Positions 12,045 through 15,923 of a stretch of DNA of 35,266 nt are shown here, in pieces. The position numbers were made by a program, and so were the translations under genes. How positions within the stretch are numbered: position 1 is the first letter of the stretch; every line of letters starts with the position of its first letter. The notes beneath the pieces are model-generated. The model had not been told where the DNA came from. It was given only the letters and a program-made list of their open reading frames with translations, and made no database searches. The stretch comes from Candidatus Diapherotrites archaeon CG08_land_8_20_14_0_20_34_12 (lineage in GTDB: Archaea > Iainarchaeota > Iainarchaeia > Iainarchaeales > 0-14-0-20-34-12): the NCBI GenBank assembly GCA_002779065.1, contig PEXL01000033.1, positions 1 through 35,266 on the forward strand, in the 5' to 3' direction.

Positions 12045-13049
12045 ATGAGATTAAATCTATTCAAATTACATGATCTTGAATTGGATTCTTCATTGAGACA
12101 ATGTCTTAGGGCATATACTATACTGCCAAAATTTTGCAAAAATCCTGACGATAAAAACATAAAGGCTAAACAAATTATAAATTGTCTTAGGACAATTGAC
12201 AAGAAACTTAAACACAAAAACAAGGATTGGAGAAAAAAATGGGTTGAACTAATCCCTTATCAAATTAAAAAAGAAACTTTAAAAGACTGGTTTATTGGAA
12301 GGGCTTCAATCCCATTAATCGCCTTAGAAAAGTTATATTATTTTAACTGTAAATTGGAACTTAGAAAAATCTGCAATAATCTAAAATATGTTTCTAGCAG
12401 TACTAAGGAACCTATTAGGATGCCTACTGAATTATCTGCTGATTTAATTTACCTAACAGGCCTAATTTTGGGTGATGGCAGCATGCCAAGGACTAAAATA
12501 AAAGGTAACAACTATGACTATAAACTGCAAATAATAAGTAAGCATAAGAAATTCCTAACAAAACAGATAGTTCCCCTATTCAAGAAAAATTTTGGGATAA
12601 GGAGATTTGATTTAAGATATCGAAATGCTTGGATGCTAACCATTCGACACAAATCAGTAACTAGATTTTTTAATAAAATAGTAGGATTGCCTTTTGGCAA
12701 TAAAAGTTCGATAGCTGAGATCCCACAAATCATAAAAACATTGCACCCAAAAAAAGTGATACCATTTATTGCAGGCCTCATTGATAGTGACATAGGAAAG
12801 CACAGTAAAGCCATGGGTTGCACTTTTAGAAGCAAAAAATTAGTTGTCGAATTGATTGACTATTTTGGCAAAATAGGCATAACAGCTAAACATTATGGGA
12901 TCCATTATAAAAATGAAATATATGAACAAAACGATTTTACTATCCCAAAATCCCAAATAAAAAGATTAAAAGGATTACTGACGGAAGTATATTTACCTAA
13001 AAGAAAAGATAGACTCAAAACAATTTATGAATTAGCAGGGATCCCATAG
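12045..13049 (+). CDS. LAGLIDADG family homing endonuclease-like protein
   Basis: Two LAGLIDADG-like motifs: LTGLILGDGSM and FIAGLIDSDIGK. Stop codon lies inside the tRNA-Leu gene. Confidence 0.85.
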   Translation: MRLNLFKLHDLELDSSLRQCLRAYTILPKFCKNPDDKNIKAKQIINCLRTIDKKLKHKNKDWRKKWVELIPYQIKKETLKDWFIGRASIPLIALEKLYYFNCKLELRKICNNLKYVSSSTKEPIRMPTELSADLIYLTGLILGDGSMPRTKIKGNNYDYKLQIISKHKKFLTKQIVPLFKKNFGIRRFDLRYRNAWMLTIRHKSVTRFFNKIVGLPFGNKSSIAEIPQIIKTLHPKKVIPFIAGLIDSDIGKHSKAMGCTFRSKKLVVELIDYFGKIGITAKHYGIHYKNEIYEQNDFTIPKSQIKRLKGLLTEVYLPKRKDRLKTIYELAGIP

Positions 13050-13142
13050 TGGCAATTGGACTGGATTCAGGACATCTTTCAATAAAAATGTGAAATTTCC
13101 AGTGGCTTAGTGCCTTCGGGGGTTCGAGTCCTCCTCCCTGCA
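13035..13142 (+). tRNA. tRNA-Leu(CAG), 25-nt intron at 13072-13096 (canonical 37/38)
   Basis: Acceptor GCAGGGA/TCCCTGC (13035-13041/13135-13141), anticodon stem CTGGA/TCCAG, type II variable arm (GGC...GCC), T arm GGGGG-TTCGAGT-CCTCC. BHB: central helix TTCA/TGAA, bulges GGA and ATT, inner CAT/ATG. CCA not encoded. Confidence 0.9.
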
Positions 13143-13230
13143 CTGCCAATCGGAGATTGGAAATAGGCCGTATGCTCGAAGAGCAATTTTTGATAAAACT
13201 TCCTTCTAAAATTCAAAGAAGTTTAGAGGA

Positions 13231-13254
13231 CCGTTAAAACTTTGTTTTAACTGG
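13231..13254 (+). repeat. Hairpin CCGTTAAAAC-TTT-GTTTTAAC(T)GG, similar to a hairpin after rnpB
   Basis: 8-bp perfect stem plus CC/GG extension with one bulged T; resembles CCAGTAAAACC..GGTTTTAC(T)TGG at 15825-15846. Confidence 0.5.
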
Positions 13255-13290
13255 TTTTGTTAAAAAGTTTTGAGGACTGCCTCCTGCACC

Positions 13291-13352
13291 ATCTTTCTTT
13301 TTCTCTTCCCAAGAGAAAAAGAAATATAGGTCTTTCAAAGAAAAAGAGAAAA
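13291..13352. repeat. Hairpin repeat element, copy 1
   Basis: TTTCTTTTTCTCTT-CCC-AAGAGAAAAAGAAA (14-bp stem), then TATAGGTCTTTC, then AAAGAAAAAGAGAAAA. Confidence 0.65.
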
Positions 13353-13377
13353 TTATTTTCAAAAAAAGAAAAAGAAA

Positions 13378-13872
13378 CTAATTAGTTAAAGGCATAAAAG
13401 GGCTAGCGATTATTTCTATTTTGTGCGGCATAACTAATGTATAATAATAATTAAAATTTAGGTTAAGCGATTCATCTGCAAAAATTCCTTGATAAACATA
13501 TTCGGCTGAAGCAATATTTACTGAATCTGAAATTAATTTAAGGTTTTTATTATTTTTAAGAAGTTGTTCATTAAAAGAATCAATCTTTTGTTGTGTTATA
13601 TCATCTTGAAGACAGTAAACAAGCCTTATTCCATCAGGTTGGGCTGATTCAACATTTTCTGAAATGACCGCTGTATGATTACCAAAATTATTTGAAATAA
13701 TTGGGTCAATAACCTTATGAATCTTAGAAGCAAAATCTGAGGTTATCGGTACTTCTTTGCTGCATTCTTTATCTGTCTTTCCTATTGGTTGATTATCATC
13801 TGGAAGATATGCGCAACCACTCAACAATAAAAGACTAAATATAGAAAATGCGACAAATAATTTACAACCCAT
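13378..13872 (-). CDS. Small predicted lipoprotein
   Basis: Signal peptide with lipobox LLLLSGC. Confidence 0.65.
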   Translation of the reverse strand: MGCKLFVAFSIFSLLLLSGCAYLPDDNQPIGKTDKECSKEVPITSDFASKIHKVIDPIISNNFGNHTAVISENVESAQPDGIRLVYCLQDDITQQKIDSFNEQLLKNNKNLKLISDSVNIASAEYVYQGIFADESLNLNFNYYYTLVMPHKIEIIASPFMPLTN

Positions 13873-13958
13873 AATTAAGTATGTGTAAATAGAAATAATA
13901 ATCCTTTGCTTTTTTCATAAACGTTATCTTTTTATAGGACAAATAGCTTAATAATATC

Positions 13959-14666
13959 ATGAAAAAAATACTTATAATATTGGGAATTTTAGCAACTTTT
14001 GTTATTTTATCAGGTTGTGTTCAACAGCCACAGATTGTAACACAATATATTTGTTCAGACGGAACAACTGTTGCGGACAAAACATTGTGCCCAGCAGCCA
14101 AAATAGCTGATGAAACAAAGACAGCAGCACCAGAAGTAGAGGAAACTACCCTTGAATCACAATTGGCAGTCTGCTATGGGATGCCATCAACCCAATCAGG
14201 TTCGTTGGAAGATATTTGCATAATTGGACTTGCAGGAAAACTTAAAGATACCTCATTGTGCAAAAAGTTGGCAAAAGACCAGCGCATGACTTGCTATGTT
14301 TTAGTAGGTGGGGTAAAAAAAGACCCTGATGTATGCCTAGAAGCTGAATTCCAAGAAGATGAATGCTATAATAAATATGCAACAGAAAAAAAGGATGCTT
14401 CTGTTTGCGAGAAAATCAAGGAAGCCAACTATAAAAGCAACTGTTACCAGAGCGTAGCCAATTATACTGGAGATCCTGCACTATGCGATAAAATAACTAT
14501 GATAAACTCGAAAGACTACTGCTATCGTGATATGGCAAATAAATTCCAAGACATAACCTATTGCAACAAGGTAACAACCGCTAACCTAAAACAAGAGTGC
14601 TTGCAGAATTTACAGAATATGCAAGGTGGTTCAAAACCAGTGATGGAAATGCCAGCAGGGAAATAA
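13959..14666 (+). CDS. Predicted lipoprotein with Cys-pair repeats
   Basis: Lipobox VILSGC; repeated ..D.xLCxKI......C(Y)..VA.. units. Confidence 0.7.
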   Translation: MKKILIILGILATFVILSGCVQQPQIVTQYICSDGTTVADKTLCPAAKIADETKTAAPEVEETTLESQLAVCYGMPSTQSGSLEDICIIGLAGKLKDTSLCKKLAKDQRMTCYVLVGGVKKDPDVCLEAEFQEDECYNKYATEKKDASVCEKIKEANYKSNCYQSVANYTGDPALCDKITMINSKDYCYRDMANKFQDITYCNKVTTANLKQECLQNLQNMQGGSKPVMEMPAGK

Positions 14667-14745
14667 GCAGCGTAATTTGCTAAAAAATACTAAAGAACAG
14701 AGTTCATGGTGTCTTAGGGTAAATTTTGTTAAAACTGGGGTTAAT

Positions 14746-15270
14746 ATGGATTTCTTTGATATTGTTGAAAAAAGAAGATCAATACGGTCATTTAAAGATA
14801 AACAAATTGAAAAAGAAAAATTGGACAAAATTTTGAATGCTGCTTATTTGGCACCTTCTGCTGGAAATCTGCAGGCAAGAAAAATTCTTGTGATAACAAA
14901 ACCTGAAGAAAAAAAGCAATTATGCGAAGCTTCTTTAGGGCAAAACTGTTTGAAAGAAGCTCCTGTTATTTTAGTTTTCTTTGCAATTCCAAAAGAATCT
15001 GAACAGAAATTCGGCGCTAGGGGTAGAGAGTTATATGCAATGCAGGATGCAACTATTGCTTGCACATTTGCAAATCTAGCTGCTACTGCTTTAGGATTAG
15101 CTAGTGTTTGGGTTGGCGCATTCCATGAAGACAGCATAATAAAGGCATTAAGTGCGCCTGTTGATTGTGTTCCAGTAGCTATGCTGCCAATCGGCTATGC
15201 TAATGAAAAGCCCAAGGAGAGAAGCAGAAAAAACTGGGAAGATATTTTTGTAAAGGAAAAATTTGAATAA
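14746..15270 (+). CDS. Nitroreductase family protein
   Basis: MDFFDIVEKRRSIRSFKDKQIEKEKLDKILNAAYLAPSAGNLQARKILV; ATALGLASVWVGAF. Start trimmed to ATG 14746. Confidence 0.88.
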   Translation: MDFFDIVEKRRSIRSFKDKQIEKEKLDKILNAAYLAPSAGNLQARKILVITKPEEKKQLCEASLGQNCLKEAPVILVFFAIPKESEQKFGARGRELYAMQDATIACTFANLAATALGLASVWVGAFHEDSIIKALSAPVDCVPVAMLPIGYANEKPKERSRKNWEDIFVKEKFE

Positions 15271-15318
15271 AAAAATCCAAACAAAACCTTTTTATATTCC
15301 AGCAAAGGGTATTCAGTA

Positions 15319-15696
15319 GGAAGTAGTGGAAGGCTAGCTTACGGAGACTGCATTAATGCAGTTTTCTGAGGAAAGTCCGCCCTCCCCGTCTTTTCTTTCT
15401 TTTAGAAAAAGAAAGAAAATATAGGTTGTCAAAAGAAAGAAAACTTTTTTTTGGCAAACCCTGAAAGGGAATGCTCGAAAGGGCATCTTTGGGAACAGAA
15501 ACGAACCTGCAAAGAATTACTGTGATTTAAATTGAGTTTTCTTTGAAAGGATGAAACGGCCTGAAGTTGGGAGCAAGTTTAAAACGCTAAGACGAATGCT
15601 AGCAAGCTTGGCAGGTTTAAATCCTGCGAAGTTCTTCAATGAACTTTACTGCAAATGCAGGGCTTAACAGAAGGTGGCTTACTCTCCACTGCTTCC
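15319..15696 (+). ncRNA. rnpB: RNase P RNA with an inserted hairpin element
   Basis: GAGGAAAGTCCGCCC (CR-I), ACAGAAA, ACAGAAGGTGGCTTAC (CR-V); P1 formed by GGAAGTAGTGGA (15319-15330) and TCCACTGCTTCC (15685-15696). Confidence 0.9.
15390..15457. repeat. Hairpin repeat element, copy 2, inside RNase P RNA
   Basis: TTTTCTTTCTTTT-AG-AAAAAGAAAGAAAA, then TATAGGTTGTC, then AAAAGAAAGAAAA...TTTTTTTTGGCAA forming a second hairpin. Confidence 0.65.
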
Positions 15697-15698
15697 GA

Positions 15699-15879
15699 CT
15701 TTTTCTTTTCTCTTTTCTTTTGGCACAAATAAAACTTAGCAGTTTTATTGTGCATTAAAATCCCTTGAATTTTAATTGCAACCTATATTTCCAAATAAAA
15801 TTCCGAGGAATTTTATTGGGCCAGTAAAACCTAAGGTTTTACTTGGTTCTTTTCTCTTTCGCAAAGAGAAAAGAAAAGG
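15699..15879. repeat. Hairpin repeat element, copy 3 (inverted relative to copies 1-2), MITE-like, five hairpins
   Basis: Ends CTTTTTCTTTTCTCTTT and AAAGAGAAAAGAAAAGG are inverted repeats (16/17). Internal hairpins: GCACAAATAAAACT..AGTTTTATTGTGC; ATTAAAAT..ATTTTAAT; AATAAAATTC-CGAG-GAATTTTATT; CCAGTAAAACC..GGTTTTACTTGG; TTCTTTTCTCTTT-CGC-AAAGAGAAAAGAA. Contains ACCTATATTT, the complement of the ATATAGGT core. Confidence 0.65.
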
Positions 15880-15923
15880 CGGAATGAATTTAAATATGAT
15901 ATAACATTACCATTAAGGACTAA

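Follow-up and report, generated by a model that had tools for sequence, protein, structure and literature searches.

What are the purine-rich hairpins that stand beside the tRNA-Leu gene and within and behind the RNase P RNA gene of this archaeon, and do they belong to a single family? The window, by which we mean the whole stretch of 35,266 nucleotides analyzed, is one contig of a 940-kb, 60-contig archaeal genome (Iainarchaeota/Diapherotrites). A preliminary description of it had reported three hairpin copies of common layout and proposed an undescribed family clustered on structured RNA genes. The sequence bears out all three as written, in the following arrangement:

13037-13142, plus strand: tRNA-Leu(CAG) gene with a short anticodon-loop intron, acceptor GCAGGGA/TCCCTGC (our own reading)
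13143-13290, plus strand: E2, a different repeat lying between tRNA-Leu and copy 1 (our own reading, compared with L051 and L041)
13289-13352, plus strand: copy 1, whole element, about 150 nt downstream of tRNA-Leu(CAG)
13289-13293, plus strand: flank CCATC of copy 1 (sequence reading)
13294-13307, 13308-13310 and 13311-13324, plus strand: pyrimidine arm, loop and purine arm R of copy 1
13325-13336 and 13337-13352, plus strand: turn TATAGGTCTTTC and mirror arm R'' of copy 1
15322-15693, plus strand: RNase P RNA gene (rnpB), archaeal type (Rfam match), hosting copy 2 and followed by copy 3
15386-15443, plus strand: copy 2, inside rnpB
15386-15390, 15391-15403 and 15404-15406, plus strand: flank CCGTC, pyrimidine arm and loop of copy 2
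15407-15419, 15420-15430 and 15431-15443, plus strand: R, turn TATAGGTTGTC and R'' of copy 2
about 15700-15880, minus strand: copy 3, a long variant, directly 3' of the rnpB end
15847-15859 and 15863-15875 (plus-strand coordinates), minus strand: hairpin arms of copy 3 (sequence reading)
about 15780-15788 and about 15701-15720, minus strand: core ATATAGGTTG and R'' of copy 3

In copy 1, whose RNA fold has a z of -2.5, R'' is an exact mirror of R (score 1.00), and copy 2 is recovered at 15385-15442 (E 6e-14) by the covariance model R1, which was built from 14 gapless copies (alignment A2). Copy 2 occupies an rnpB loop whose length varies among relatives, and since an element lies directly 3' of rnpB in two relatives, the 3' position is shared. 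The rnpB genes of the relatives L131 and L134 have E2-type hairpins (AAACTTTT..AAAAGTTTGATCAAAA) in the loop corresponding to the copy 2 site. Copy 3 has four additional small hairpins inserted around its core, and the long variant also adjoins other tRNA and mRNA 3' ends (L041:3150-3560, L041:5080-5760, L058:10700-11150); at the last two of these loci and at window 15700-15880, two to four such hairpins lie between R, core and R''.

The tRNA-Leu gene at 13037-13142 was not reported by ARAGORN, and Rfam gave only a weak tmRNA-like match at that locus (13060-13135). E2 repeats follow tRNA-Leu genes at window 13143-13290, L051:6402-6560 and L041:3150-3300; at the end of each unit about 17 nt of the tRNA 3' end are repeated (GAATCCTGTCCCGTGCA), in degenerate form in the case of the window, and the units in L051 are apparently tandem. 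We read E2 as a putative second type of mobile cassette, also with a duplication running from the T-loop to the 3' end. An ORF at 12045-13049, overlapping the start of the tRNA-Leu gene, has LAGLIDADG-like motifs (GLILGDGS, AGLIDSD) and no Pfam match at E 0.001; GGTTCAGCGGAAATCTACTCT, found near its start, is also present upstream of other ORFs (L042, L049), where it follows element copies.

The proposal of an undescribed family is supported: we found about 60-letter DNA elements, previously undescribed, across many DPANN groups. A covariance-model search had been suggested for extending the three copies, and R1 gave 47 matches in the genome of the window and was positive in 33 of the 58 genomes of the order, with up to 35 matches per genome outside our own. 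Elsewhere there were 65 in Iainarchaeum STA_60 and 30 in STB_123, 36 in a Pacearchaeota genome, 29 in an Aenigmatarchaeota genome, 21 in a Nanoarchaeia genome, 10 in Forterrea and five in a Micrarchaeota genome, and none in eight bacterial genomes or in two other DPANN genomes. A search of our own genome with the core AATATAGGT had yielded four more copies of identical layout. A pattern derived from CTATATTT proved too closely tied to our own genome. Pattern matching across 85,462 species genomes points to DPANN (Iainarchaeum/Diapherotrites, Micrarchaeota, Aenigmatarchaeota, Pacearchaeota and others), with scattered single matches in bacteria. Five pattern matches in viral contigs included no element-like hairpin. 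A structural scan of 320 kb of our own genome (the window plus 20 stretches) detected 28 pure pyrimidine:purine hairpins of at least 10 bp, most of them in or beside tRNA genes, as against 0-1 in simulated sequence of equal short-word composition. The two outcomes that would have refuted the proposal, a lack of further copies and hairpins equally frequent by chance, did not occur. Copies 1-3 match no Rfam family at or above the gathering score, the best match below threshold being RAGATH-19 (27.6 of 85.6 bits), and we found no description of the element in the literature, subscription papers and preprints not being covered.

What defines the family appears to be its fold. Our collection of 149 elements was assembled with no regard to the mirror relation; R1 includes the R'' columns as sequence, which biases the collection to A-rich R'' and cannot create the mirror rule. 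Along the P strand, CN2GCC is followed by a pyrimidine arm of mostly 10-16 nt, a loop of 2-4 nt (mostly 3), the purine arm R, a turn of 9-14 nt (mostly 11-14) containing A-N1-G-T-T, and the second purine arm R''. The second arm proved to be a mirror of the first and not a repeat: R'' is R read backwards, neither R itself nor its complement. The mirror is exact over the first 8-11 positions in 142 of the 149 elements (99.3% of 1594 positions) and in 97 of the 103 with asymmetric arms, none of which is a direct copy; with R'' permuted within the same genome, 49 exact mirrors were obtained on average and 66 at most. The core ATATAGGT is present as had been noted, but it is merely the commonest version in its own genome of a general turn, TGTA-N-GTTGCC (consensus T G T/C A N1 G T T G C C), and taken alone it is weak evidence (four matches against 0.74 expected).

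The turn is itself a small hairpin with pairs 2:10, 3:9 and 4:8, the pair 3:9 occurring as C-G, U.G or U-A, and its N1 pairs with N2 of the flank in Watson-Crick fashion (T:A, C:G, G:C) in 85 of 87 cases, as against a shuffled mean of 40. Six pairs of alignment A2 change on both sides, and the observed covariation score was reached by none of 500 shuffles. The dinucleotide CC, expected in 21, occurs in the arms of none of the 149 elements. Neither the mirror rule nor the N1:N2 pairing had been seen earlier, nor had the copies at protein genes and the target duplications described below. A hairpin followed by a mirror arm, that is, a mirror and an inverted repeat together, has the geometry of an intrastrand triplex; we infer that such a triplex forms, of the purine motif on the P strand or of the pyrimidine motif (U.A-U, C+.G-C) on its complement. 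Tandem extra R-turn-R'' units without a pyrimidine arm lie behind complete elements at L084:6531-6640 and L042:9030-9300.

The clustering on structured RNA genes holds well beyond the window. With placement called by ARAGORN, introns allowed, 89 of the 149 elements (60%) are either in tRNA introns or separated from a tRNA end by 2-9 nt. Fifty-three are in ARAGORN introns (anticodon loop), 42 of them just after exon 1 in the P sense and 11 just before exon 2 in the opposite orientation; outside introns, 22 form 3' trailers (P sense) and 14 form 5' leaders (opposite orientation). From these orientations it follows that, on either side, P is read away from the gene. A further 16 elements lie 4-9 nt after a stop codon, about 23 were assigned, less surely, to start codons, and 21 remain without assignment. 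By our own reading, the protein genes concerned include those of L7Ae, L24e and radA, with the element upstream, and of the thermosome and a V-type ATPase subunit, with the element downstream. In several families the intron copies of tRNA-Asp and tRNA-Cys recur at one shared position. For the tRNA-Asp, -Ser and -Arg loci we considered, and rejected, split tRNA genes whose halves are transcribed apart: the halves are in order and 70-250 nt apart, and ARAGORN calls them intron-containing genes. In the L7Ae 5' UTR (L047, about 1475-1520), a textbook kink-turn (CC-UGU-GA-CUUU..AAAG-GA-GG) that includes the ribosome-binding site directly follows the element, which suggests L7Ae autoregulation. In the 956-kb contig C1 of the Nanoarchaeia genome G061, 20 of the 21 elements are on one strand over about 850 kb, a span too great for half a replicating chromosome of such a size.

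Some copies carry traces of movement. Flanking direct repeats were found in Pacearchaeota and Nanoarchaeia genomes and at a few Iainarchaeum loci: repeats of at least 11 nt, ending no more than 7 nt from the element, flank 14 of 215 elements as against 0.5 in permuted controls, and those of at least 16 nt flank nine of 215 as against 0.1. In the sampled Pacearchaeota stretches, where one copy sits at the end of a gene that we read as rpl2, 15 of 27 copies have duplications of at least 15 nt. The duplications range from 13 to 40 nt in this subset of copies; many span the tRNA from the T-loop to its 3' end or slightly past, and others cover the end or the start codon of a protein gene (in L303, the first 23 nt of the ORF). 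The host gene is intact in the cases read in detail, and one 14-nt target holds two elements in tandem. The element end at CN2GCC is constant, while the other end is variable and poorly defined. No target duplication was found at the window copies, nor at most copies. Duplications at intron copies were not above control, and the end of exon 1 and the 3' end of the intron were no more alike than permuted pairs, and we therefore rejected target duplication as an origin still visible in the intron copies. Judged from these flanks, the element is, or was, mobile, given some copies with target duplications, chiefly in Pacearchaeota.

To account for the observed family, with its DPANN-wide spread, three-strand covariation, N1:N2 pairing, placement at genes and subset with duplications, our best explanation, held with modest rather than strong confidence, is a miniature non-autonomous mobile element that is defined by its fold and retained as a self-folding module of transcripts, although the enzyme, the active strand and a host function were not shown. 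In the proposed fold, R would be the pairing partner of the pyrimidine arm and the CN2 end that of the turn's loop, and R'' would turn back and follow the stem, exactly in register, as the third strand. Copies would be inserted at gene ends by an integrase that recognizes this fold, makes staggered cuts and is provided in trans. We infer that copies survive in host RNAs because their arms, composed only of T/C against A/G, would fold alone within the transcribed insert and disturb the host RNA little; copies would thus persist as tRNA introns, leaders, trailers and UTRs, the three window copies included. We count against mobility that no mobilizing enzyme was found, that most copies lack a duplication, that the arms of copies in our own genome diverge while the three-strand match is kept, and that the far end of the element is ill defined. 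A resident reverse transcriptase or Cas1 was rejected as the machinery, being absent from most copy-rich genomes: RVT_1 is absent from 22 of 24 genomes, including our own and the copy-rich G058, G061 and G065, and Cas1 is present in only four of the 24, without relation to copy number (two of 14 element-rich genomes, G002 and G059, and two of 10 genomes without R1 copies), and is absent from our own. The supply of the integrase in trans, for example by viruses or plasmids, is an inference.

A host RNA element, in which the three-strand hairpin at RNA ends and in introns protects or processes transcripts without present mobility in the order, is a plausible reading that we rate short of probable. 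It would fit the close spacing to stop codons (4-9 nt) and tRNA ends (2-9 nt), the shared positions of the tRNA-Asp and tRNA-Cys intron copies, the UCCG-type loops present in one family, and the C-G, U.G and U-A states of the turn pair 3:9 on one strand, the usual wobble series of RNA. The arms vary between copies of our own genome and yet keep the three-way match, which points to selection acting on the individual copies and not to recent copying; such selection on the fold, as these comparisons imply, is the best argument for a function in place, itself inferred. However, elements in front of tRNA genes lie in the opposite orientation, their complement being what appears in the transcript, and show the same U.G state, the target duplications mean movement in at least some lineages, and all-RNA purine-motif triplexes have been reported as unfavorable, to go by the title of a work cited in PMC4666352.

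We regard as unlikely, if still worth keeping, a DNA element whose triplex, intrastrand or H-DNA, would stop read-through or take up supercoils at the borders of genes; in duplex DNA its orientation would be irrelevant. A mirror repeat with purine and pyrimidine arms is the textbook requirement of H-DNA, the lack of CC suits isolated C+.G-C triplets, and the hairpin faces the gene on both sides; but a block would damage the gene at the tRNA-intron copies, which are inside a transcription unit, and the N1:N2 pairing and the turn hairpin belong to one strand folded on itself. The U.G (T.G) state at 3:9 favors the P strand as RNA (or as DNA with G.T), whereas the absence of CC favors a pyrimidine-motif triplex on the other strand. 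That state occurs in one of 11 reverse-orientation intron copies as against 16 of 37 others, and leader copies are not depleted of it. Since these two signals disagree, as do intron and leader copies, the evidence for RNA or DNA is split.

A retroposon, for which target-primed reverse transcription would copy a complementary-strand RNA with a pyrimidine-motif triplex and GGCNG-3' at its end, agrees with the fixed end at CN2GCC, the variable other end and the target duplications of variable length; we consider it rather improbable, as the host reverse transcriptase that a LINE-like retroposon requires was found in just two of the 24 genomes. Very improbable is a REP-like single-strand DNA element moved by a Y1 transposase of the IS200/IS605 or RAYT type, in spite of the hairpin with its nearby 2-nt pairing, which resembles a guide/target pairing, and the one-strand bias in G061. 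That class is not known to make target duplications, which do occur here, and the only Y1 transposase trace in our own genome is a single 84-aa open frame, a fragment matching the middle of PF01797; this reading is disfavored. Chance low-complexity hairpins of an AT-rich genome, to which the simple T/C and A/G strings of the arms might point, are refuted by the simulation, by the permutation and shuffle controls on mirror and N1:N2 covariation and by the lack of matches in eight bacterial genomes, and we give them practically no credit.

The preferred mobile-element reading has partial parallels among known systems. REP/REPIN sequences, RAYT-mobilized repeats and Rickettsia palindromic elements are short palindromes of many copies that lie between genes or inside RNA and protein genes. 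Our element resembles them in palindromic form, high copy number and comparable sites; unlike it, they lack a third mirrored arm and REPs are not known to give target duplications, and no mobilizing gene was found here, in contrast to REP/REPIN and RAYT-mobilized repeats. PIT elements (Hoyne/Maher) and the ITxF triplex motif TM (PMC4666352) share with it a one-strand hairpin with a third arm in mirror register and many repeats per genome; the bacterial intrastrand triplex motifs have been linked to genome rearrangement (PMC4666352). Our elements satisfy the ITxF criterion of a pure purine/pyrimidine hairpin with a mirror third arm but not that of the loops, for which the ITxF search allows 1-6 nt (PMC4666352): the hairpin loop is within this range and the second spacer, 9-14 nt, mostly 11-14, is not. 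They differ further in being A/T-rich, in their DPANN hosts, in a conserved turn paired to the flank, in their target duplications and in their location on tRNA and rnpB genes; PMC4666352 makes no mention of tRNA.

Casposons have target duplications of 1-27 nt (median 15) at tRNA or aEF-2 3' ends (PMC4046053, PMC6977970). Casposons and Cas1-type integrases are alike to our element in their duplications, in the preference for tRNA 3' ends and an essential protein gene, and in the intact target gene, and duplications at tRNA 3' ends are indeed met in a subset of our copies. Nevertheless, the present element has no terminal inverted repeats, in line with its one fixed and one variable end, carries neither cas1 nor polB, shows duplications up to 40 nt, and lives in copy-rich hosts that mostly lack Cas1. 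Archaeal tRNA introns with bulge-helix-bulge splice sites have been reviewed (PMC4090602); many of our copies are likewise in anticodon-loop introns, mostly near position 37/38, but others are in leaders, trailers and rnpB and beside protein genes.

The element thus differs from the nearest described objects in architecture, hosts, placement and target duplications, and it might well form a separate class. In a bolder form, which we offer tentatively and expect to fail sooner than to hold, it would be a new class of mobile element across several DPANN phyla, with a three-stranded fold, preserved by three-way covariation, as the signal for its transposition; its insertion at tRNA gene ends and anticodon loops would have seeded many tRNA introns, trailers and mRNA UTRs, and its copies would now be triple-helix RNA modules. 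Three-strand covariation at such a scale is evidence, by comparison, of a natural fold of triplex type that occurs in many copies, where most known triplex candidates are single RNAs or statistical motifs. Because duplicated insertions, old intron copies and rnpB copies coexist in related genomes, how archaeal tRNA introns and disrupted tRNA genes arose becomes directly testable, and the element provides a marker for mobile DNA in the DPANN archaea, whose mobile elements are little known.
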